A stretch of 64,000 nt of DNA from Clostridium sp. 12(A) (GTDB lineage: Bacteria; Bacillota; Clostridia; Lachnospirales; Lachnospiraceae), in the NCBI GenBank assembly GCA_000526575.1, contig JAGI01000002.1, positions 3,105,001-3,169,000 on the forward strand, written 5' to 3'. Made by a program: the position numbers and the translations under genes. Below are positions 3,878-16,194 of this stretch, piece by piece. How positions within the stretch are numbered: position 1 is the first letter of the stretch; each line of letters opens with the position of its first letter. The notes beneath the pieces are model-generated. The model did no database searches. It was not told the origin of the DNA and saw only the letters and a program-made list of their open reading frames with translations.

Positions 3878-3950
3878 GGGATACTAGCTCAGGTGGTAGA
3901 GCACTTGACTTTTAATCAAGTTGTCCGGGGTTCGAGTCCCCGGTGTCTCA
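3878..3950 (+). tRNA. tRNA-Lys (TTT)
   Basis: A 73-nt cloverleaf with anticodon TTT at 3911-3913, acceptor stem GGGATAC with GTGTCTC and T loop TTCGAGT. Last tRNA of the cluster, directly before a terminator. Confidence 0.95.
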
Positions 3951-3956
3951 GGACAA

Positions 3957-3992
3957 GCCTTGAAACAGAAATGTTTCAGGGCTTTTTATTTT
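3957..3992 (+). terminator. Rho-independent terminator of the rRNA/tRNA unit
   Basis: Stem 3957-3967 pairs with 3972-3983 around a short A-rich loop and is followed by a T-rich tail (TTTTATTTT). It lies immediately after tRNA-Lys. Confidence 0.9.
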
Positions 3993-4006
3993 GTCCGAAG
4001 ATGATA

Positions 4007-4237
4007 TTACTCATCAAATTCTACGATTACGTAATATCCCCGATCATTATGTTTTACTTCTTTTACAATCCCTTTATCAGATTTTATGCGGTCTCTTCCA
4101 GAGTAACATCCAGACATGGCCACAGCTGGATCGATTATGTAGCTGTAGCTGCTGGCACCTTCTCGCTCAATGACGTGAACTTGATCATTTGCCTTTACCA
4201 GACCAGGACGTTCCATTTTAAACTCGATTAACCTCAT
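4007..4237 (-). CDS. Small conserved-looking protein of unknown function (76 aa)
   Basis: I do not recognise this protein. It is 76 residues long, with mixed charge, many alternating hydrophobic residues and no signal peptide or membrane segment. This suggests a small beta-rich cytoplasmic domain. A GAGAGGAAG ribosome binding site lies about eight bases before the ATG, which supports a real gene. It stands alone on the minus strand, between the tRNA terminator and the forward decarboxylase gene, with an AT-rich 266-bp gap on its 5' side that must hold promoters for both directions. No function can be assigned from the sequence. Confidence 0.7.
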   Translation of the reverse strand: MRLIEFKMERPGLVKANDQVHVIEREGASSYSYIIDPAVAMSGCYSGRDRIKSDKGIVKEVKHNDRGYYVIVEFDE

Positions 4238-4503
4238 AGTGATCTTCCTCTCTTTCTTTTTTTACCCAAAATACTATTATAGCTTCCGGAGAAAAAATTG
4301 TAAAGAAGGGATAAGGATGATATACTTAAATATGTATTTACTAATGGTATAAGAACAAATGCACAAGCTATATTAACTATAGTTCTTTACTTACAATAGA
4401 TAAAATATGATAATACTATAAATGTATAGCTAATATAGATTGAAATAATAAGAGAGTGACAAATTAGCTTAATCATTTTTATGTACCAGAAGAGGAAAGT
4501 AAA

Positions 4504-6006
4504 TTGATAGAAAGACCAAGATTATTAGAGAGATTAATGGATTATAGTAAATCTGATTTTTATCCATTTCACATGCCTGGACATAAGAGGCAGTATGGGA
4601 ATGATGAGATAAGGAAGTTTCCTAATCCATTTTCTATAGACATTACGGAGATTGAGGGATTTGATAATCTTCATCGACCGGAGGGAATTTTAAAGGATTC
4701 TTTGGAGTGGGCGTCTGAGGTTTATGGGGCTGATAAGACTTATTATCTTGTGAATGGGAGCAGCTGTGGAATATTGAGTGCTATTAGTGCGGCGGTATCA
4801 AACAGAGGCAAGATTTTAATGAGCAGGAATTGCCATAAGTCAGCATTTCATGGAGTTTTCCTCAAGCAGTTGGAAGTAAAATATATTTATCCACAAATGA
4901 TGCCGGAATTGGGGCTTCAAGGTGGAATACTGGCTGAGGATGTCGAGGAATTGTTGAAAACAAATCCAGAGGCAGAGGCAGTGCTTGTAGTATCTCCTAC
5001 TTATGATGGGGTTGTTTCAGATATCAAGGCGATTGCTGATGTGGTTCATAGGTTTGGTATACCGTTAATTGTGGATGAAGCCCATGGGGCGCATTTTGCA
5101 TTTGGCAGGGTGGATGAGTTTCCTGTGTCTGCATTGAAATTAGGTGCTGATGTTGTAATTCAGAGTCTTCATAAGACGCTTCCTTCCTTGACGCAGACTG
5201 CTATTTTACATGTCAGGAAGGGGTATATTGATTTAGAGAAACTGGATCGTTATATTCATATGTATCAGACTAGCAGCCCGTCCTATGTATTTATGGCTAG
5301 TATAGAGAATTGTATTGTTTACATGGATGGTGAGGGAAGAAAAAAGCTGGGTGAATTTTCTGAGTCTTTGACTAGAATGCGAGGGCGGCTGGAGGGGATG
5401 AAGCATCTGACGCTGCTTTCGGATGAAATTATTGGACAGTATGGTGTTTATGATATGGACCTGTCAAAAGTGATTGTGTCTACAAGAAATACTGTATGGT
5501 CAGGGAATCAATTAAGTGACGTGCTGCGAAAAGAGTATCATCTGGAAATGGAAATGTGCGGAGCTGACTATGTGACGGCTATAACAACCTTAGAGGATAC
5601 AGAGGAAGGGCTTCAGAGGCTTTGCAGCGCATTGCTTGAGTTGGATGATCAATTGGGAGCTACAGCTGGTTCTGGAAGCATTTCCTTGCAGAAGGCTGAG
5701 GAAATGGCAGGGCAGAGTGATACTGGTAGTGTGCTTCTTGATTTTACGATTGAGGAAGATTGCAGATATCCTATTTTTGAAGCAATGGATGGCAGGCGTT
5801 ATAAAATAAAAATTTCAGAGGCAATAGGAAGAGTATCAGCTGAATTTATTTATTTGTATCCGCCAGGGATTCCCATAGTTGTACCGGGTGAAGTGTTGAC
5901 TGGTGATTTAGTGGAGCTGATTATGAAATTCAAGGATTTAGGGCTTCCGGTTCAGGGAATGGAAGATGAGGCGGCAGAAGAAATATTTGTTTTAGAAGAA
6001 ATGTAG
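4504..6006 (+). CDS. Orn/Lys/Arg decarboxylase-family PLP enzyme (YaaO-like)
   Basis: A 500-residue fold-type I PLP enzyme of the short Gram-positive Orn/Lys/Arg decarboxylase family. Visible motifs are HMPGHKR near residues 23-29, the cofactor-binding DEAHG at 191-195 and the Schiff-base lysine K224 in SLHKTLPS. A C-terminal YPPGIP segment is typical of the family. Members decarboxylate lysine, arginine or ornithine to a polyamine or its precursor; the substrate cannot be told here. The start is TTG, preceded by GAGGAAAG at good spacing. The next gene, 48 bp on, is a nucleotide kinase, as in the B. subtilis yaaO-tmk pair, so the two are probably one operon. Confidence 0.9.
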   Translation: MIERPRLLERLMDYSKSDFYPFHMPGHKRQYGNDEIRKFPNPFSIDITEIEGFDNLHRPEGILKDSLEWASEVYGADKTYYLVNGSSCGILSAISAAVSNRGKILMSRNCHKSAFHGVFLKQLEVKYIYPQMMPELGLQGGILAEDVEELLKTNPEAEAVLVVSPTYDGVVSDIKAIADVVHRFGIPLIVDEAHGAHFAFGRVDEFPVSALKLGADVVIQSLHKTLPSLTQTAILHVRKGYIDLEKLDRYIHMYQTSSPSYVFMASIENCIVYMDGEGRKKLGEFSESLTRMRGRLEGMKHLTLLSDEIIGQYGVYDMDLSKVIVSTRNTVWSGNQLSDVLRKEYHLEMEMCGADYVTAITTLEDTEEGLQRLCSALLELDDQLGATAGSGSISLQKAEEMAGQSDTGSVLLDFTIEEDCRYPIFEAMDGRRYKIKISEAIGRVSAEFIYLYPPGIPIVVPGEVLTGDLVELIMKFKDLGLPVQGMEDEAAEEIFVLEEM

Positions 6007-6054
6007 GTACTACATTTTCTATGAGATAGAATCAATGAATTGGAGCATATAAAG

Positions 6055-6633
6055 ATGGGAAAGATTTTTTACGTGATGGGGAAGAGCGCTTCTGGTAAGG
6101 ACACCATTTATAAGCGGTTGCTGGAAATGCAGCCCCATCTGAAACAGGTTGTTTTATATACCACCAGACCGATTCGGCAGGGAGAAAAAGACGGGAAAGA
6201 ATATTATTTTACTTCTGAGGATAGGTTGAAGCAGTTGCGAGAGGAAGGTAAGATCATTGAAGAGAGGACATATCAGTCTATTTTGGGTCCGTGGACTTAT
6301 TTTACGGTTGATGACGGACAGATTGATGTGAATAGTGATGACAGCTATCTGATGATTGGTACCTTGGAATCCTATGAGAAAACAAGGAATTATTATGGGG
6401 CTGGTATCATGGTTCCTATTTATATTGAAGTGGAAGACGGGAAACGTCTGTTAAGGGCTCTTGAAAGGGAAGATAAACAGAAAGAGCCTAAATATGCAGA
6501 GCTTTGCAGGCGGTATCTGGCTGATGAAGAGGATTTTAAAGAGGATAATTTAGCTAGATGCGGAATTGAGCGAAGATTCTTGAATGATGATTTGGAAATG
6601 TGTCTCAGAGATATTTTGGATGTAGTAAGGTAG
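6055..6633 (+). CDS. Guanylate kinase-like nucleoside monophosphate kinase
   Basis: A 192-residue kinase of the guanylate kinase fold. The P-loop GKSASGKD lies near residues 9-16, and the GMP-binding segment YTTRPIRQGEKDG plus YYF follows. The middle part differs from canonical Gmk (for example ILGPWTYF in place of the usual YGT region). It may therefore be a paralogue of the housekeeping enzyme; GMP/dGMP phosphorylation is inferred. The ATG at 6055 is chosen because GGAG lies nine bases upstream; a TTG at 6040 would add five residues. In many Firmicutes thymidylate kinase occupies this position after the yaaO-like gene. The stop codon lies inside an 8-bp tandem repeat. Confidence 0.82.
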   Translation: MGKIFYVMGKSASGKDTIYKRLLEMQPHLKQVVLYTTRPIRQGEKDGKEYYFTSEDRLKQLREEGKIIEERTYQSILGPWTYFTVDDGQIDVNSDDSYLMIGTLESYEKTRNYYGAGIMVPIYIEVEDGKRLLRALEREDKQKEPKYAELCRRYLADEEDFKEDNLARCGIERRFLNDDLEMCLRDILDVVR

Positions 6634-9160: not shown

Positions 9161-9362
9161 TGGTACCCCATCCTTTCGGCTGTTTTTTGTATTTTATCAT
9201 TTTCTTACTTCAAATGATATAGCTGCCACTATTTTGCCACAGTTTCACCTTTGAAACGCGTATGGGATTGGTAGTATTCTTTGAGGCAGAGAAGGAAATC
9301 AGTTGCGTAGCGATCATGATTTCACTCATTGGATCATCCCAACAATAGAAAGGAGATTTATT

Positions 9363-10259
9363 ATGAAAAAATCATTGAAACCGGTCACATCCTTATTAGT
9401 CACTGCTATGCTCTTTACTGGTAGTTTAACCGTTCCAGCTCAGGCCGCACAGGCTCCCAGTACCACGAAAAAGGTAGTGAGCAGCCAGGCTGCAGGGAAT
9501 ACAACAGCTGCTAAAGCGGGAAGTACTGGTACTGGAACAACAGAGAACTCAAAGACAGCAGCAGGGTCAAAAAGCACAGAGGCAGCTAAGACTGGAGCAG
9601 CAGCAAAGAGTACAGAGGCAGCTAAGGCTGGAGCGGCAGCAAAGAGTACAGAGGCAGCTAAGACTGGAGCGGCAGCAAAGAGTACAGAGGCAGCTAAGAC
9701 TGGAGCGGAAGTAAAGACCACACAAGCAGCAGCTGATGGGGCTAAGACTGTTAAAAAGGATGCAAAGAAGGCAGGTAAGAAAGCGGCTGTTAAAAAAGCA
9801 AATAAAAAAGCCAGCGCAAAGAAACATAAAAAGACAGCAGTAAAAAAAGCACATAAGGCTAAAACAGTAAAGGCAAATAAGAAAAAAGCTGGTAAGGTTC
9901 GTAATGTTGCGGCAAAGACCCATAAAGCAAAAGCCCATAAAGCAAAAGCCCATAAAGCAAATACAAGTAAGAAAGCAGTTGCTAAAAATATCAAAGCAGT
10001 AAAAAAGCAAAAGGCAGCAGCGCAGACAAGTAATTCAAATGCGAAAACCGTAAATAAAGCGGCTCAGACAAGTAATTCAAATGCTAAAACTGTAAATAGT
10101 GGGGGACAGACTGGTAATGCATCTGCTAAAACAGGAACAGCTGTAAAACAGGCTGGTAATGCTGAGACTAAATCAGGTGCAGCAGGAACTCAGGCAGGAA
10201 AAACGGATGCTAAGACAGGTAAAACAACGGATAATTCGACGAATACAACGAAGAAATAG
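9363..10259 (+). CDS. Secreted Ala/Lys-rich low-complexity repeat protein
   Basis: A 298-residue protein with a clear Sec signal peptide (MKK start, hydrophobic core, PAQAAQA cleavage region near residues 25-31). The rest is almost only Ala, Lys, Thr, Gly, Ser and Asn. Four 12-residue units KSTEAAKTGAAA (residues 70-117) lead into a strongly basic histone H1-like middle with AKAHK repeats, then an NSNAK-containing tail. I see no LPXTG, LysM, choline-binding or SLH anchor. The ATG at 9363 is chosen because AAAGGAG lies seven bases upstream; a longer frame to 9303 would hide the signal peptide. It may bind anionic wall polymers or DNA. Function unknown. It lies head-to-head with a two-component system. 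Confidence 0.8.
   Translation: MKKSLKPVTSLLVTAMLFTGSLTVPAQAAQAPSTTKKVVSSQAAGNTTAAKAGSTGTGTTENSKTAAGSKSTEAAKTGAAAKSTEAAKAGAAAKSTEAAKTGAAAKSTEAAKTGAEVKTTQAAADGAKTVKKDAKKAGKKAAVKKANKKASAKKHKKTAVKKAHKAKTVKANKKKAGKVRNVAAKTHKAKAHKAKAHKANTSKKAVAKNIKAVKKQKAAAQTSNSNAKTVNKAAQTSNSNAKTVNSGGQTGNASAKTGTAVKQAGNAETKSGAAGTQAGKTDAKTGKTTDNSTNTTKK
9570..9713 (+). repeat. Four tandem 36-bp coding repeats
   Basis: Four in-frame 36-bp units (9570-9605, 9606-9641, 9642-9677, 9678-9713) encode KSTEAAK(T/A)GA repeats in the secreted protein. Identity between units is high, so copy number may vary between strains. Confidence 0.85.
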
Positions 10260-10373: not shown

Positions 10374-11081
10374 CTATTCCTCATAGACCTGCTGAGATCC
10401 TTCTATGGTATCTCTTAAGTATTTTTGTATCCATTGACAGGCGCCTTGTTTATCTCTGTCATTTAAGTATCTTTGCAGGTGTATGATATGGCCATATAAG
10501 GCCTGAATGCCATATAGCTTGCAGAAACGTACCCATAAAACAATACATACTTCCTTAAAGGAAGAGTAAATCAGGGTAAGGACTGTGTTTCCGGCATAAT
10601 AAGCCAGGTCGTGGTGATATTGAAAGGCGATCTGGGCTGCTTTTTGTATGGAATCTGTGCTTTTCAGCTTTTTTGCGGTTAATTCCAGATGCTGAATGGC
10701 CTCTGGGGTGGCAGTATCAATGACGAGGCCGGCAGCAAGCTGTTCCAGGGCTGTTCGTATTTCCAGGATTGCACGGATACCGGCTTTATCCAGTTTGTTG
10801 CCACGGTATTCTAATAATGCGATTAAGGTCTGCAGATTTCCATTTCGGCTGAAATCGGCTACATAGGTACCTTGTCTTGGCAGTACTTCTAAAAATCCTT
10901 TTCTTCTTAATTCGTTGATTCCCCCATTTACAACGGCGCGGCTGACCTTCATCTGTTCTGCCATTTCACGCTCCGGCGGCATCTTGCTTCCAACAGGAAG
11001 TTCTCCGGATAATATCTTTTCTTCTATTTGCTGAACAAACAAATCCTTTAGAGATGGTGCAGTTATTTTTGAAAACTCCAT
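10374..11081 (-). CDS. GntR-family regulator, FadR/FCD subfamily
   Basis: A 235-residue regulator. The N-terminal winged helix (residues 8-75) shows LPVGSKMPPEREMAEQMKVS and the wing RQGTYVA. The C-terminal all-helical FCD domain (about 90-225) begins with the typical EIRTALEQLAAGL. FCD regulators usually bind small organic acids, sometimes through a metal ion. It is divergent from hypB. A TGGTNNNACCA site, the known core of FadR-type operators, sits between its own promoter and start codon, and a second one sits before hypB. It therefore probably represses both itself and the hypB unit. The inducer is unknown. Confidence 0.9.
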   Translation of the reverse strand: MEFSKITAPSLKDLFVQQIEEKILSGELPVGSKMPPEREMAEQMKVSRAVVNGGINELRRKGFLEVLPRQGTYVADFSRNGNLQTLIALLEYRGNKLDKAGIRAILEIRTALEQLAAGLVIDTATPEAIQHLELTAKKLKSTDSIQKAAQIAFQYHHDLAYYAGNTVLTLIYSSFKEVCIVLWVRFCKLYGIQALYGHIIHLQRYLNDRDKQGACQWIQKYLRDTIEGSQQVYEE

Positions 11082-11099
11082 ATGATTTCCTCCTTGGCA

Positions 11100-11154
11100 C
11101 TGGTTATACCAGATACCATAGTGGAATTTTACAACATTTTAGTGGTAAAATCAA
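11100..11154 (-). promoter_or_regulatory. Promoter and operator of the FadR-like regulator gene
   Basis: Read on the minus strand: -35 TTGATT (11149-11154), a 17-base spacer and -10 TAAAAT (11126-11131). Between the -10 and the start codon lies a CTGGT/ACCAG palindrome (11100-11112, core TGGTTATACCA), which fits autorepression. Confidence 0.7.
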
Positions 11155-11193
11155 GATAGAAGTTAATAAAATGTATAGAAATAGTGGGAAAAG

Positions 11194-11222
11194 TTGACTT
11201 GAATTGTGCAAAAGGGTATAAT
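11194..11222 (+). promoter_or_regulatory. Sigma-A promoter of the hypB unit
   Basis: -35 TTGACT (11194-11199), a 17-base spacer and consensus -10 TATAAT (11217-11222). Transcription should start near 11229, about 50 bases before the hypB ATG. Confidence 0.8.
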
Positions 11223-11240
11223 GTTAAAATCATAACATAT

Positions 11241-11255
11241 TCTGGTATAACCAGA
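11241..11255 (+). promoter_or_regulatory. Operator for the FadR-like regulator in the hypB leader
   Basis: The palindrome TCTGGTATAACCAGA lies just downstream of the predicted transcription start. Its 14-base core is the exact reverse complement of the copy at 11100-11113 near the regulator gene. The TGGTNNNACCA core matches the FadR-type operator consensus. Confidence 0.78.
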
Positions 11256-11278
11256 AGTTTTTTAAGGAGGGGTTACCC

Positions 11279-11950
11279 ATGGGGGATTTCACAGTTCTGG
11301 AAGTTAAGCAGAGTATTTTTGCAGATAACGACCGAAGAGCGGATGAATTGAGATCAGAATTAAAATCAAAAGGGCTTTTTTTGCTTAACCTGATGTCATC
11401 GCCTGGTGCCGGTAAGACGACCACACTGACAAGGACCATCAGTGGATTGAAGAATCAGTTTCACATAGGTGTTATGGAGGCGGACATTGACTCAGATGTA
11501 GATGCCAGGAGTATTTCAAAGCTTGGGGTTAAGACGATTCAGCTTCATACGGGGGGAATGTGTCACCTGGATGCAGAAATGACGGGTCAGGGCCTTCTGG
11601 GGCTTGAGACAGAGGGGCTGGATCTGGTGGTTCTTGAAAATGTAGGTAATCTTGTTTGTCCGGCGGAGTTTGATACTGGGGCAGTAAAGAATGCGATGAT
11701 ACTTAGTGTGCCAGAGGGGCATGATAAGCCGTTAAAGTACCCGTTGATGTTTTCCATATGCGATGTGGTTCTGATTAATAAGATAGATGTTCTGCCCTTT
11801 TTTGACTTTGATTTAGAAGCGTGTAAATCTTACATATTAATGAGGAATCCAAATGCTAAGATCATTCCCATTTCTGCCCGTACCGGAGAGGGTATGGAAG
11901 AGTGGATTCAGTGGTTGGAAGCTGAGGTGAAAAAGTGGCAGCAGCAGTGA
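11279..11950 (+). CDS. hypB: Nickel-insertion GTPase HypB
   Basis: A 223-residue SIMIBI GTPase that delivers nickel during NiFe-enzyme maturation. The P-loop SPGAGKTT lies near residues 41-48, and NKID near 167-170 sets guanine specificity. The metal-site Cys-His pair (C95-H96 in GGMCHLDAEM) and C127 in NLVCPAEFD match the GTPase-domain metal site of known HypB proteins. The N-terminal His-rich stretch and CXXCGC motif found in some family members are absent. AAGGAGGGG precedes the ATG. It starts an apparent unit with a large flavoprotein, hypA and DUF5692. No hydrogenase gene is nearby, so the client enzyme is unclear. Confidence 0.92.
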   Translation: MGDFTVLEVKQSIFADNDRRADELRSELKSKGLFLLNLMSSPGAGKTTTLTRTISGLKNQFHIGVMEADIDSDVDARSISKLGVKTIQLHTGGMCHLDAEMTGQGLLGLETEGLDLVVLENVGNLVCPAEFDTGAVKNAMILSVPEGHDKPLKYPLMFSICDVVLINKIDVLPFFDFDLEACKSYILMRNPNAKIIPISARTGEGMEEWIQWLEAEVKKWQQQ

Positions 11951-12042
11951 TGAAAGGTAATTGGGTTTTGTTTTCTCATAGAGTGGAATTATTGTATTTT
12001 TTATAAGAATTTATAGTTGTTTAAACATAAAAGGAGCAGAAA

Positions 12043-14751
12043 ATGGATGAAGGTAGAGCGTTAATCTTAAAATTGGGGCAGAAGATTACAGACCGGATGG
12101 GGCATAAAGTCACAGTGGAGGATGCCGAGTACTGGGGGCTTGCCGGTTCTATTACAGATGAGATGGCAGAGGTGGCATTGGCTATGAAGGTGAGAAAGCC
12201 GATGTCAGCCAAAGAGGTGGCAAAGAAATGCAAAAAGGATCTGGACAGGACGGAAGCGCTTCTTCAGGAAATGAGTGTTATCGGGTTAATCGAGTACAAC
12301 TGGGAGAACCGGGATCATAAGAAGCAGTACATACTTCCTATGTTTGTGCCAGGGTGCGCGGAATTTATGAATATGAACAAGGAACATGTGGAGTCTCATC
12401 CGGAAGTTGCGAAACTGTTTCATGAGATGTCACGTCTTCCTCTGGAAAAGGTGACCCCTATGGTTCCCCTGGGAGGAGGGGGAATCGGAATGCATGTAAT
12501 TCCTGTGGAAAAGGCCATTTCCACGGAGCAGAAGTCTTTAAGTATAGAGCATATTTCCCACTGGGTGAAAAAGTATAAGGGAAAGTATGCAGTAGGGGCT
12601 TGTTCCTGCCGCCGTTCCAGACGGATTTTAGGAGAGGGATGCGGTCACCTGGAAGACGAGATGTGCATCGGTGTGGGGGATATGGCGGATTATCTGGTGG
12701 AGACCAACAAAGGACGTTATATTGACGAAGCAAAGGTAATGGAGATTCTTAAGCGTGCGGAGGACAATGGACTGGTTCATCAGATTACAAATATTGATGG
12801 GGAGGATAAGATATTTGCAATCTGCAACTGCTGTGTCTGTTCCTGCTATGCCCTTCGGACCTCTCAGCTATTTAATACGCCTAATATGTCACGGTCGGCT
12901 TATGTTGCCAAGGTGGACGGAGATAAATGTGTGGCTTGCGGACAATGCGTGGAGTATTGTCCGTCAGGGGCAGTAAAGCTTGGTCAGAAGCTATGCACCA
13001 AAGACGGTCCGGTGGAATATAAAAGACAGGAGCTTCCGGATTCTGTAAAATGGGGACCTGAGAAATGGAATGAAAATTACCGGGATGACAATCAGATTAA
13101 TTGTTATGATACGGGAACAGCGCCCTGTAAGACGAAATGTCCGGCTCACATTGGGGTTCAGGGATACTTAAAGATGGCTTCTCAGGGGCGATATGAAGAG
13201 GCTTTAAAGCTGATTAAGAAAGACAATCCATTTCCGGCTGTCTGCGGCAGTATCTGCAATCGGAGGTGTGAAGAGGCCTGTACAAGAGGGACCATTGATC
13301 AGGCAGTTGCCATTGATGAAGTAAAGAAATTTATAGCAATGCAGGAGCTTTCCAGGGAGAAACGTTATATTCCCCCTATGGTGAATCAGATTGGGAAGCC
13401 TTATCCTCAAAAGATAGCAGTCATCGGAGCTGGTCCGGCGGGAATGACCTGTGCATTTTTCCTGGCTCAGAAAGGATATCCGGTCACTGTGTTTGAAAAG
13501 AATCAAAGGCCGGGAGGTATGCTTACCTATGGAATTCCTAAATTCAGGCTGGAGAAAGATGTGCTGGAGGCAGAAATTGATGTGCTTCGTCAGATGGGAG
13601 TGGAATTTCAGTGCGGCGTAGAGATTGGTAAGGACGTGACCATGGAAGAACTTCGGAAGAAGGAGTATAAGGCATTTTATCTTGCCATTGGTTGTCAGGG
13701 GGGAAGAAAAGCCAATATTCCAGGGGAGGATGCCAAGGGAGTTTATACTGGTGTGGAATTTTTACATAGGAGTAACAGCAGGGAAGACATTTCTTTACCG
13801 GGACGGACGGTGGTAATCGGCGGAGGCAATGTGGCGGTTGATGTAGCCCGAAGCTCGGTTCGTGCAGGTTCGTCTTCTGTATCCATGTACTGTCTGGAAG
13901 ACCGCCTGACAATGCCGGCGGCAAACGAAGAAGTGGTGGAGGCTCTGGAGGAAGGGATTGAAATCCATAATAGTTGGGGGCCTAAGGAAATAATAATAGA
14001 AGATGGAAGTGTAAGAGGAATTGTACTTCAAAAATGTGTTTCCGTTACCGATCGTGATGGAAACTTTCATCCCCAGTATGATGAGACGAACTGCATAACA
14101 GTAGAATGCGAACATGTCCTAATTAGCATTGGACAGAGTATCATTTGGGGCGATTTGTTACATGGAAGTAAGGTAGAGCTGGCAGGTGGGGGCCGTGCAG
14201 CGGCGGATTCGTTGACGTATCAAACAGCACAGCCGGATGTATTTGTGGGAGGTGATGTATTTACAGGACCAAGGTTTGCCATTGATGCCATTGCAGCAGG
14301 AAAAGAGGGGGCTGTTTCCATTCATCGGTATGTTCATGAAGGGCAGAGTTTAACTATTGGAAGGAACCGCAGGGAGTTTATTGAGCTTGACCGGGAGAAT
14401 CTGGTGATTCCAAGGGAGAGTGTCAGCTGCTTTAAAAGGCAGGAGCCAGGAAAGGTATCCGGTGTTGATCCGAAGACAACGTTTGATGATACCAGACTTC
14501 CATTGACCGAGGAACAGGTGAAGGCAGAGACAGCCAGGTGCTTAGGCTGCGGCGCCTCGGTGGTGGATCGTAACCGATGCATTGGATGTGGAGTCTGCAC
14601 CACAAAGTGCGAGTTTGATGCCATCCATTTATTTAGGGAGTTGCCAGAGGCAAGCAGAATGGTAAAGAGTGAGGATAAGATGAAGATGGTACTGCCATAC
14701 GCAATGAAACGGCAGATTCGGATTATCCGTAATAAGAACCGGTCGGTGTAA
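12043..14751 (+). CDS. Multi-cluster Fe-S / FAD NAD(P)H oxidoreductase (GltD-like core, extended N-terminus)
   Basis: A 902-residue modular redox protein. Residues 1-100 look like a winged-helix region. Residues 187-268 carry two unusual cysteine clusters (CSCR, then CNCCVCSC). A ferredoxin motif CVACGQCVEYCP begins near 297. From 362 to about 415 is the Cys-rich GltD-type N-terminal domain (CKTKCPAHIG, CGSICNRRCEEAC). The FAD site GAGPAG is at 462-467 and the NAD(P)H site GGGNVAVDVARS near 593-604. A C-terminal CIGCGVCTTKC pair begins near 846. The core resembles glutamate-synthase small-subunit / NfnB-type reductases. No glutamate synthase large subunit is nearby. Its position between hypB and hypA suggests electron transfer for a nickel-related reaction; the partner is unknown. 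Confidence 0.85.
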   Translation: MDEGRALILKLGQKITDRMGHKVTVEDAEYWGLAGSITDEMAEVALAMKVRKPMSAKEVAKKCKKDLDRTEALLQEMSVIGLIEYNWENRDHKKQYILPMFVPGCAEFMNMNKEHVESHPEVAKLFHEMSRLPLEKVTPMVPLGGGGIGMHVIPVEKAISTEQKSLSIEHISHWVKKYKGKYAVGACSCRRSRRILGEGCGHLEDEMCIGVGDMADYLVETNKGRYIDEAKVMEILKRAEDNGLVHQITNIDGEDKIFAICNCCVCSCYALRTSQLFNTPNMSRSAYVAKVDGDKCVACGQCVEYCPSGAVKLGQKLCTKDGPVEYKRQELPDSVKWGPEKWNENYRDDNQINCYDTGTAPCKTKCPAHIGVQGYLKMASQGRYEEALKLIKKDNPFPAVCGSICNRRCEEACTRGTIDQAVAIDEVKKFIAMQELSREKRYIPPMVNQIGKPYPQKIAVIGAGPAGMTCAFFLAQKGYPVTVFEKNQRPGGMLTYGIPKFRLEKDVLEAEIDVLRQMGVEFQCGVEIGKDVTMEELRKKEYKAFYLAIGCQGGRKANIPGEDAKGVYTGVEFLHRSNSREDISLPGRTVVIGGGNVAVDVARSSVRAGSSSVSMYCLEDRLTMPAANEEVVEALEEGIEIHNSWGPKEIIIEDGSVRGIVLQKCVSVTDRDGNFHPQYDETNCITVECEHVLISIGQSIIWGDLLHGSKVELAGGGRAAADSLTYQTAQPDVFVGGDVFTGPRFAIDAIAAGKEGAVSIHRYVHEGQSLTIGRNRREFIELDRENLVIPRESVSCFKRQEPGKVSGVDPKTTFDDTRLPLTEEQVKAETARCLGCGASVVDRNRCIGCGVCTTKCEFDAIHLFRELPEASRMVKSEDKMKMVLPYAMKRQIRIIRNKNRSV

Positions 14752-14778
14752 GAACTGGAGGAAAAAGAAGGTGCAATC

Positions 14779-15126
14779 ATGCATGAGTTAGGATTGGTCA
14801 CTCATATTGTCCGGACGGTTGAGGAGATATCCAGGGAGGAAGCGTTTAAAAAGGTGTCCTCTGTCACGCTGGAGCTTGGGGAAGTCAGCGGGGTGATTCC
14901 TGATTATCTCATGGACTGCTGGAAGTATTTTCGGGTAAAATCTCAGCTTTTAGAGGAAGCAGAGCTAAGGATTCTTGAAATTCCGGCAGTGACGGTATGT
15001 GAGGACTGCAAGGGAACGTATTCCACGTTGGAGTTTAAAAAGGTGTGTCCCCACTGTGGAAGTGTAGCTACTTATCTGGTAACGGGAAATGAGTTCATTA
15101 TTAAAGAAATAGAAGCGTGTTCTTAA
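14779..15126 (+). CDS. hypA: Nickel metallochaperone HypA
   Basis: A 115-residue HypA homologue of usual length. It begins MHE, giving the N-terminal His2 nickel ligand. The zinc site is formed by two CXXC pairs, C74/C77 and C90/C93. HypA binds nickel and passes it with HypB to a target enzyme. It starts 27 bp after the Fe-S flavoprotein gene and ends 12 bp before the DUF5692 gene, so it belongs to the same unit as hypB. The hypB and hypA genes are split by the flavoprotein gene, an unusual order. Confidence 0.92.
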   Translation: MHELGLVTHIVRTVEEISREEAFKKVSSVTLELGEVSGVIPDYLMDCWKYFRVKSQLLEEAELRILEIPAVTVCEDCKGTYSTLEFKKVCPHCGSVATYLVTGNEFIIKEIEACS

Positions 15127-15138
15127 GGAGGATTAAGT

Positions 15139-16194
15139 ATGTTTGTTTTTACAGAAGGTGTTCCTGCAATATTGGTTTTACTGGTGTGGGTTGGTGTGTT
15201 TCTTTCTTTATTTGCAGCCAATGAAGTAAGCCGCCGATTTAAATGGGTGGGGTTTGGTTGTTTTGTTGTACTGCCGGTTATTTTAACGGTTCTCTGGCTG
15301 ACTGTGTTACGGGATACCTCCTATATGGATTGGTTTCATCTGGCTAAGGTTTATTCTTCTACGGCTGGCTGTATTGGTTTTTGGTGCATTCGTCATATTA
15401 AGAAGCTGCGCCATAATAAAATCGCCCTTTGTTTTCCACCGCTCATACTGGCGATTAATATTATGGAAGCCTGTATCAGGGATTTTGAAGTCTCCCAGTA
15501 TGTTACGCCGGTGATGGAATATATGAACAATCAGGTTCAGTATTACATTGGCGGACCGTGGAATGTGATGAATGGAATTGCTGGTCTTTTAAATATCGTT
15601 ACCATTACGGGCTGGTTTGGTATCTGCATCCGGAAAATCACCTGTAAGGATAAAAGCCAGGATATGCTTTGGCCGGATATGTTATGGTTCTGGATCATAG
15701 CTTATGATTTGTGGAATTTTGCTTATACCTATAACTGTCTGCCTACTCATGCATGGTATTGCGGATTTGCACTTTTACTGGCACCCACAATTTGTGCATT
15801 TACCTTAGGCAAGGGAGCCTGGCTTCAGCATCGTGCTCAGACTCTGGCACTTTGGTGTATGTTTGCACAGACCTTTCCGGCATTTCAGGATGCCAGTCAG
15901 TTTTTAGTACATTCTGGTTCCAGTAAGAACATTGCAGAGGCGGCTATTAGAGAAGGGCTGCTGGCATCCGATGGGTATACGGTTTTAGCTGGCTCTGGCA
16001 TCTATCAGGTGGCTGGGGCAGCACCAAATACTATCTTTATGTTTGTAATGAGCTTGTTGGCGCTTCTGGCTAATATAGGAGTGTTTGGTTATATGATTTA
16101 CAGAATTGTTAAAACAAAGAAAAATCCATATACAGGAGAACTTTATGGGGATCTTAGGAAGTATAAAGAGGTTAAGGTTCTCGCTGAATCATAA
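15139..16194 (+). CDS. DUF5692-like polytopic membrane protein
   Basis: A 351-residue integral membrane protein with about eight hydrophobic segments spread over its length. I believe it belongs to the DUF5692 family, which has no known function. A segment at residues 200-208 (C200, H204, C208 within CLPTHAWYC) and several other membrane-embedded Cys and His residues could bind metal or heme; this is inference. AAGGAGG with ideal spacing precedes the ATG, 12 bp after hypA, and a terminator follows. Linkage to hypA/hypB suggests nickel transport or a nickel-dependent membrane activity. Confidence 0.78.
   Translation: MFVFTEGVPAILVLLVWVGVFLSLFAANEVSRRFKWVGFGCFVVLPVILTVLWLTVLRDTSYMDWFHLAKVYSSTAGCIGFWCIRHIKKLRHNKIALCFPPLILAINIMEACIRDFEVSQYVTPVMEYMNNQVQYYIGGPWNVMNGIAGLLNIVTITGWFGICIRKITCKDKSQDMLWPDMLWFWIIAYDLWNFAYTYNCLPTHAWYCGFALLLAPTICAFTLGKGAWLQHRAQTLALWCMFAQTFPAFQDASQFLVHSGSSKNIAEAAIREGLLASDGYTVLAGSGIYQVAGAAPNTIFMFVMSLLALLANIGVFGYMIYRIVKTKKNPYTGELYGDLRKYKEVKVLAES

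Follow-up and report, generated by a model that had tools for sequence, protein, structure and literature searches.

Introduction

In the accessible text of Kronen et al. (2023; PMC10134865), IsrA (VUZ27132.1), a protein of 901 amino acids (aa), is proposed as the isoprene reductase of Acetobacterium wieringae ISORED-2, an assignment that rests on proteomic induction, reverse transcription PCR and genome comparison. The five-gene isr operon is induced by isoprene and includes two hypA genes, one hypB and a ferredoxin gene; around 988 IsrA homologs, HypA, HypB and DUF5692 were found at frequencies of 0.73, 0.56 and 0.40, and IsrA was suggested as a nickel target with a six-cysteine "cluster V" as the possible site. 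The same gene set was called a putative diene reductase cluster in the diene-reducing A. wieringae strains Y and N (accessible text of PMC12509576). An IsrA homolog is also known from the laboratory acetogen Acetobacterium woodii DSM 1030 (PMC10134865). Here we describe a related unit of Clostridium sp. 12(A), located in a window of 64,000 nt (C2:3105001-3169000) within the 4.6-Mb genome. A divergent gene for a GntR-family regulator with an FCD domain (GntR/FCD) lies on the minus strand, followed on the plus strand by hypB, a gene for a 902-aa iron-sulfur (Fe-S) flavoprotein, hypA and a DUF5692 gene. The reading we favor, and hold to be somewhat probable, is that the unit encodes an IsrA-type reductase with dedicated HypB and HypA, DUF5692 as a membrane accessory and the GntR/FCD protein as a repressor acting at two operators.

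A reading made from the sequence alone had taken the unit for a possible undescribed nickel redox system. That novelty did not hold, since the arrangement of hypA, hypB and DUF5692 around IsrA homologs is already in print (PMC10134865). Beyond that paper, PMC12509576, PMC9765523 and PMC6474224, a literature search that left subscription papers mostly uncovered returned no title on the unit or the strains and no further paper on a lipid or gut link of the unit, and found the word DUF5692 in PMC10134865 only. The genome-wide HypA pattern, the split among HypA proteins, the operator pair and the stand-alone controls for the N-terminal domain are new here; none was found in the accessible text of PMC10134865.

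Comparison of the 902-aa protein with IsrA

Compared with the published description of IsrA of ISORED-2 (clade 9), the 902-aa protein was of near-equal length and shared its domain order and cysteine layout. Pfam assigned Fer4_20, Pyr_redox_2 and Fer4 domains, with an N-terminal region ahead of a GltD/Nfn-like module of 500 aa. Four Cys4 [4Fe-4S] sites were accompanied by a six-cysteine cluster V with two CxC pairs, at 187/189 and 261/263 here and at 180/182 and 254/256 in IsrA. Conservation was scored on distinct rows (115 reduced to 113 for IsrA, 84 to 83 for HypA, 81 to 80 for HypB and 39 to 36 for DUF5692). Among the 16 further cysteines of the IsrA-type protein, 10 were kept in 113/113 distinct rows, and the six near the C-terminus were kept in all 90 of the 115 rows that reach that far. 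The domains and conserved cysteines bore out the earlier description of a 902-residue protein with cysteine clusters and FAD and NAD(P)H sites.

The window unit and the isr operon have hypA and hypB in common, and DUF5692 is a frequent neighbor of the IsrA family. By contrast, one hypA is present here and two there, and the 350-aa ferredoxin gene of the isr operon is absent here; the window unit includes DUF5692, adjoins the GntR/FCD gene and has the order hypB-isrA-hypA-DUF5692.

The 902-aa protein was compared in a 20-row alignment, and its top Foldseek match was NfnABC (9bov, E 8.5e-42), with a core that also resembled dihydropyrimidine dehydrogenase (DPD) and StnABC. It shares the FAD/NAD(P) module with Fer4_20 with NfnB, StnABC, GltD and DPD, and adds to it an N-terminal domain (N-domain) of about 290 aa and the linkage to nickel chaperones. 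A bifurcating transhydrogenase or a similar Nfn-like electron switch, which would not reduce unsaturated substrates, fits the matches to NfnABC and StnABC, and electron bifurcation was considered for IsrA in the accessible text of PMC10134865. However, an electron switch would not account for the conserved N-domain and the metal site in it. Clustering of the neighbors at 81 loci for a substrate gene returned, besides hypA, hypB, DUF5692 and GntR (8 loci), only one unannotated cluster, of 15 loci, and no other neighbor family in more than 15 of the 81 (the clusters being unannotated), which also counts against this explanation. We regard it as quite unlikely.

Client of HypA

HypA followed IsrA across a sample of 196 genomes of the order. 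Full-length IsrA relatives were present in 29 of these genomes (best piece at least 653 bits; other classes at most 312 bits), including G003 and G135, in which IsrA was split between contigs; a search with the N-domain only returned the same 29. The NiFe hydrogenase large subunit was found in 30 genomes and HypA above the cut-off in 43, two marginal HypA matches being set aside as spurious (G011, 29.6 bits; G064, 29.5 bits; open frames 471 and 482 aa long). HypA was encoded in 28/29 IsrA genomes: in 12/12 with both IsrA and hydrogenase and in 16/17 with IsrA alone, where the sole genome without it (G181) was 75% complete. It was also found in 13/18 genomes with hydrogenase alone and in 0/149 with neither. 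Among the 166 genomes without a NiFe hydrogenase, the association of HypA with IsrA had a Fisher p of 2e-21, or 3e-19 when the two marginal matches were counted, in both cases with kinship ignored. This co-occurrence makes IsrA the likely client of HypA.

The HypA trees agreed with this pattern. In a first tree of 92 HypA proteins, 17 rows from hydrogenase genomes, not beside IsrA, were split from 74 IsrA-locus rows with a Shimodaira-Hasegawa-like approximate likelihood ratio (SH-aLRT) of 94; the 17 were chosen by genome, some of them (for instance L191, L192, L194 and L182) lying on another contig than the hydrogenase, and L203-L206, which adjoin neither IsrA nor a hydrogenase, were left out. 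In a second tree of 95 rows, from which L199 (short) and L077 (far from IsrA) were dropped, one branch divided 75 from 20 rows (SH-aLRT 93); the unlinked rows were placed afterwards, L203-L205 joining the hydrogenase-genome rows and L206 the IsrA rows. The HypA tree was quick and unrooted, on 113 columns.

The chaperones of the unit belong to the same families as those of hydrogenase loci and keep the metal residues. HypB scored 239 bits against TIGR00073 (cut-off 121.2), and its C95, H96 and C127 were kept in 80/80 distinct rows. HypA scored 107.7 bits against PF01155 (cut-off 28.9), and its H2, E3 and four cysteines were kept in 83/83, the rows for both proteins having been picked by score against models built from IsrA loci. 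The earlier view that both proteins are intact at the C95-H96 and C127 site of HypB and at the MHE and two CxxC motifs of HypA is thus upheld. However, the window HypA missed the hydrogenase HypA equivalog TIGR00100 (74.4 bits; cut-off 88.1) and was separated by a branch from its counterparts in hydrogenase genomes, and, unlike hydrogenase hyp loci, the unit has neither a hydrogenase nor hypD, hypE or hypF.

That no hydrogenase is present was true of the window and not of the genome. A single PF00374 match, at C2:1435540 outside the window, marked a NiFe hydrogenase large subunit of 359 aa with both CxxC motifs kept (RICGIC, DPCISC); it was NuoD-like by sequence and therefore probably belongs to group 4. 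LarA and two carbon monoxide dehydrogenases (CODHs) were also encoded, and urease had no match in the genome. The sequence-only reading had seen a difficulty in any NiFe hydrogenase or other known nickel enzyme elsewhere that lacked its own hypA and hypB; the hydrogenase found is encoded beside its own hypF, hypD, hypE, hypB and hypA. A second IsrA copy (C2:89032-91596, 52% identical) also had its own hypB and hypA, so that the hydrogenase locus and both IsrA loci each have a pair of their own. CODH and LarA are served by chaperones other than HypA and HypB.

With hydrogenase, CODHs and LarA all encoded, HypA and HypB could in principle be a general spare nickel supply for these enzymes, placed beside IsrA by accident. 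The separate pairs at the hydrogenase and at each of the two IsrA copies, the retention of HypA in IsrA genomes without a NiFe hydrogenase and the split of IsrA-adjacent HypA from that of hydrogenase genomes all speak against such a supply, which we consider very unlikely. The co-occurrence, the tree split and the hydrogenase's own pair instead support the earlier suggestion that the window hyp genes probably serve a client other than a hydrogenase.

The second unit (L171; G000:C2:88288-92074) had the order hypB-isrA-hypA with no DUF5692 in the fetched stretch, and sat behind genes for a D-2-hydroxyacid dehydrogenase and a sulfite/nitrite-reductase-like protein. One weaker TGGT-N3-ACCA core lay 290 nt upstream of its hypB (L171:7998).

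Gene linkage in related loci

Linkage was examined in the best 80 of 583 loci, largely from gut and rumen bacteria and including Clostridia, Collinsella and Bacteroidales. hypA was found at 63, hypB at 46 and DUF5692 at 23 of these 80, many of which were cut by contig ends. When only the 54 loci flanked by 3 kb at either side were considered, hypA lay within 3.5 kb in 45, hypB in 31 and DUF5692 in 17. The order hypB-isrA-hypA-DUF5692 was seen in 10/80 loci, in four of them with intervening open reading frames (ORFs). One stretch of Clostridium sp. Marseille-P2415 (L126:9842-19690) had a hypA behind each of three IsrA-type ORFs, of which two were shorter matches.

N-terminal domain and candidate metal site

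The six cysteines of cluster V (Cys187, 189, 208, 261, 263 and 268) and His246 were invariant in the 113 distinct IsrA rows, while Cys200, 264 and 266 varied. No specific model for the N-domain was found in Pfam or NCBIfam, only generic ferredoxin and weak winged-helix matches, and a sequence search of the PDB gave no match up to E 1.

N-domains without the flavin module occurred at 14 places in the order sample. All 13 that were aligned kept the six cluster V cysteines plus Cys200, 264 and 266. Twelve of these stand-alone proteins, one of them truncated at a contig end, were about 430 aa long and had Gln where IsrA has His246. They are the protein at L241:7651-8967 and 11 relatives (L242-L252), all of the Fe-S type, which carry the motif CYCRH...CNCCGCCC and an N-domain as in IsrA; Pfam and NCBIfam searches on three of them returned ferredoxin-type matches only. 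The six-cysteine motif was rejected as proof of nickel, the approximately 430-aa proteins of HypA-less genomes keeping it.

A different stand-alone protein, of 350 aa, lay directly after hypB and hypA in L207 of G014. For the 350-aa ferredoxin outside the isr operon, no hyp association was reported in the accessible text of PMC10134865, and L207 looks like one hyp-associated case. Its linkage without a flavin module shows that an N-domain on its own can be accompanied by hyp genes, a single case that points to the N-domain as the metal-bearing part. His246, on these alignments, is specific to IsrA and not to hyp linkage. The genes of L207 span 3905-6082, and the same genome has IsrA and DUF5692 elsewhere.

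DUF5692

The last gene product of the unit scored 405.3 bits against PF18948 (cut-off 27). Its AlphaFold2 (AF2) model, from 23 rows, was a helical membrane bundle with a mean predicted local distance difference test (pLDDT) score of 77.8; a sequence search of the PDB gave no match up to E 1, and Foldseek and VIA-align found no clear PDB fold among the folds those tools list. Fourteen positions (E29, R32, K70, N107, N142, N145, D175, D180, Y189, W192, N193, Y196, Y198 and R232) were invariant in 36 distinct rows, and no Cys or His column reached 95% of them. The segment C200, H204, C208, to which the sequence-only reading had drawn attention, exists in the window protein, but these residues were conserved in only 28, 28 and 26 of the 36 rows.

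These results bear on the idea that nickel resides in DUF5692 itself, with the 902-aa protein as its electron donor. The presence of that segment and the linkage of DUF5692 to the unit, in L122, L123, L126 and L133 as the gene nearest the regulator and its operators, would agree with it. The lack of an invariant Cys or His and the retention of HypA in 8/9 IsrA genomes without DUF5692 argue against it, and we hold it highly improbable. It was rejected on Cys/His conservation, a test beyond whose reach Asp, Asn or Tyr ligands lie.

DUF5692 genomes carried IsrA in 20/20 cases in the order sample and in 7/11 in a phylum sample, where absences are less sure because two IsrA candidates were scored per genome, compared with four in the order. 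Five 20-kb stretches around DUF5692 genes of the four phylum-sample genomes without detected IsrA held no hyp gene, HypA elsewhere in those genomes not having been searched, and this too speaks against DUF5692 as the nickel protein. Judged by the 20/20 and 7/11 genomes that share IsrA, the prospect that DUF5692 occurs mostly without hypA and hypB was for the most part not borne out. The position of DUF5692 nearest the operators in the four loci named above ties it to the regulon.

Away from IsrA, DUF5692 adjoined an amine-oxidase-type flavoprotein in L173:8019-10491, lay near another in L187:10827-14469 and, in two copies, was found beside an FMN_bind/Fer4_5 membrane protein in L185:7233-13260; the inspected neighbors in L174, L176, L181 and L188 included neither type of protein. 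A role as membrane partner of flavin enzymes acting on lipophilic substrates would fit.

Regulator, operator-like sites and gene unit

GntR/FCD homologs lay beside the unit in other genera. TGGT-N3-ACCA is the usual FadR-type core. Exactly two such cores, at 11101 and 11243, were present in the 64-kb window; they sit at opposite ends of the divergent region (197 nt), and each separates a promoter-like -10 hexamer from the gene presumably served. Among ten distinct loci with a divergent GntR gene (the window, L060, L063, L065, L122, L123, L126, L130, L133 and L214), 10/10 had at least one core in the region and 8/10 at least two, compared with 37 cores in the 1.39 Mb of the 80 named loci, divergent-GntR loci included. 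The count excludes L218 and L219, which are the window's own locus and a copy from the same species. Three more loci were set aside: L064, with GntR located behind the unit, and L163, with GntR on the same strand, both without a core in the region, and L094, which has one core but in which a contig end cuts GntR and the pair is about 9 kb from IsrA.

The longer pattern CTGGTNWNACCAG occurred at six places in the genome (two for the reversed pattern), two of which were the window palindromes; the other four lay inside long ORFs and were dropped as operators. Like the FadR/GntR-FCD regulators PdhR and LldR, the window protein combines a winged helix-turn-helix (wHTH) and an FCD domain with palindromic TGGT-N3-ACCA sites. 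However, its scores fell well short of the listed NCBIfam equivalog cut-offs.

ORF analysis agreed with the earlier gene order and coordinates, the cited start at 10374 belonging to the divergent GntR gene (Table 1). Gaps of 92, 27 and 12 nt between hypB, the 902-aa gene, hypA and DUF5692, together with the promoter-like site at 11194-11222, fit one transcription unit. Of the single promoter and single terminator claimed before, the terminator was not recovered: a terminator scan gave no terminator-like site downstream of 16194 up to 16600. The T-tailed hairpin that the scan flagged at 11240-11256 coincides with palindrome 2 and makes a more plausible operator palindrome than terminator. Upstream, at 9303-10259 of the window, an ORF encoded a probably secreted, Lys/Ala-rich protein; it is 318 aa long and contains repeats of KTGAAAKSTEAA-like units.

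Table 1. Features of the hypB-isrA-hypA-DUF5692 unit, in window positions
Feature	Positions	Strand	Basis or remark
GntR-family regulator with FCD ligand domain	10374..11081	-	PF00392 59.5 bits, PF07729 39.9 bits, both above cut-off
Operator-like palindrome 1, core TGGT-N3-ACCA at 11101-11111	11099..11113	.	Adjoins GntR gene start
Promoter-like site of the GntR gene	11126..11154	-	9/12, weak
Promoter-like site of the operon (TTGACT, 17 nt, TATAAT)	11194..11222	+	11/12
Operator-like palindrome 2, core TGGT-N3-ACCA at 11243-11253	11240..11256	.	Between -10 hexamer and hypB
hypB, nickel-insertion GTPase, C95-H96 and C127	11279..11950	+	TIGR00073 match
IsrA-type 902-aa Fe-S flavoprotein: extra N-terminal domain and FAD/NAD(P) module of the NfnB/GltD/DPD type	12043..14751	+	Fer4_20, Pyr_redox_2, Fer4
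Candidate metal site in N-domain of the 902-aa protein (Cys187, 189, 208, 261, 263, 268, His246)	12601..12846	+	Invariance
hypA, nickel chaperone, MHE and two CxxC	14779..15126	+	PF01155; IsrA side of HypA tree
DUF5692 polytopic membrane protein, probable accessory of the unit	15139..16194	+	PF18948; AF2 model helical

Discussion

The favored reading, a GntR/FCD-controlled IsrA-type reductase with its own chaperones and a membrane accessory, draws on the HypA co-occurrence and trees, the locus linkage, the operator cores and the NfnABC/DPD fold match, together with the isoprene-induced IsrA operon (PMC10134865) and the strains of PMC12509576, which reduce dienes and share this gene set. Under this reading, electrons from NAD(P)H would enter the 902-aa protein at the NfnB-like FAD module and pass via [4Fe-4S] clusters to the N-terminal metal site, formed by the six cysteines and perhaps His246, where an unsaturated substrate, probably hydrophobic or conjugated, would be hydrogenated. 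HypB and HypA would act as dedicated chaperones that load nickel into the 902-aa protein. DUF5692 may be a membrane accessory, most likely for docking of the enzyme or for hand-over of electrons or of a lipophilic substrate. Repression by the GntR/FCD protein would act on both the regulator gene and the operon, at the two TGGT-N3-ACCA operators, until a ligand releases the protein.

Several observations weigh against this reading. Eight of the 54 well-flanked loci had no hyp gene or DUF5692 within 3.5 kb, and one had DUF5692 only; 9/29 IsrA genomes of the order had no DUF5692; and 4/11 DUF5692 genomes of the phylum sample had no detected IsrA, one of the four being a fragment. The split seen for HypA was not clean for HypB (4 changes, minimum 2; 70 rows). 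The approximately 430-aa N-domain proteins keep the cluster V cysteines with no hyp gene in 12/12 fetched stretches, and five of the twelve come from genomes without HypA above the cut-off (G073, G139, G107, G048 and G025, the last only 74% complete), so that the six-cysteine motif alone is, judged from these alignments, no nickel signature. In L207, the sole hyp-linked stand-alone N-domain protein, His246 is replaced by Leu. Further, the resemblance to IsrA is drawn from the published description of that protein, and a nickel measurement on an IsrA protein was not found in the accessible parts of the literature.

The cysteine motif of the HypA-less genomes and the TIGR00100 score of the window HypA, below the cut-off for hydrogenase HypA, would also suit chaperones that deliver a different metal in place of nickel, or that do no more than help to build an Fe-S site, the enzyme then being a nickel-free Fe-S flavin reductase. 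However, His2-Glu3 of HypA and the C-H...C metal residues of HypB are kept without exception in the distinct rows, and we think this alternative rather unlikely.

A broader proposal goes beyond the favored reading and is offered tentatively, as a possibility on the doubtful side. The 902-aa family may be a widespread class of nickel enzyme in many gut and rumen anaerobes, with a Ni-Fe-S site built from the six invariant cysteines and His246 and with its own HypA and HypB. DUF5692 would bring lipophilic substrates to the enzyme from the membrane, and their unfunctionalized conjugated double bonds would be hydrogenated there.

If IsrA-type enzymes hold nickel, the few known classes of nickel enzyme would gain another, and the presence of HypA in anaerobes without a NiFe hydrogenase (16/17 IsrA genomes) would be explained. 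The operator-like sites offer a way in, as the GntR/FCD protein is expected to have the substrate or a related compound as its ligand. The hydrogenation of unsaturated compounds by gut and rumen bacteria is of medical and agricultural interest.

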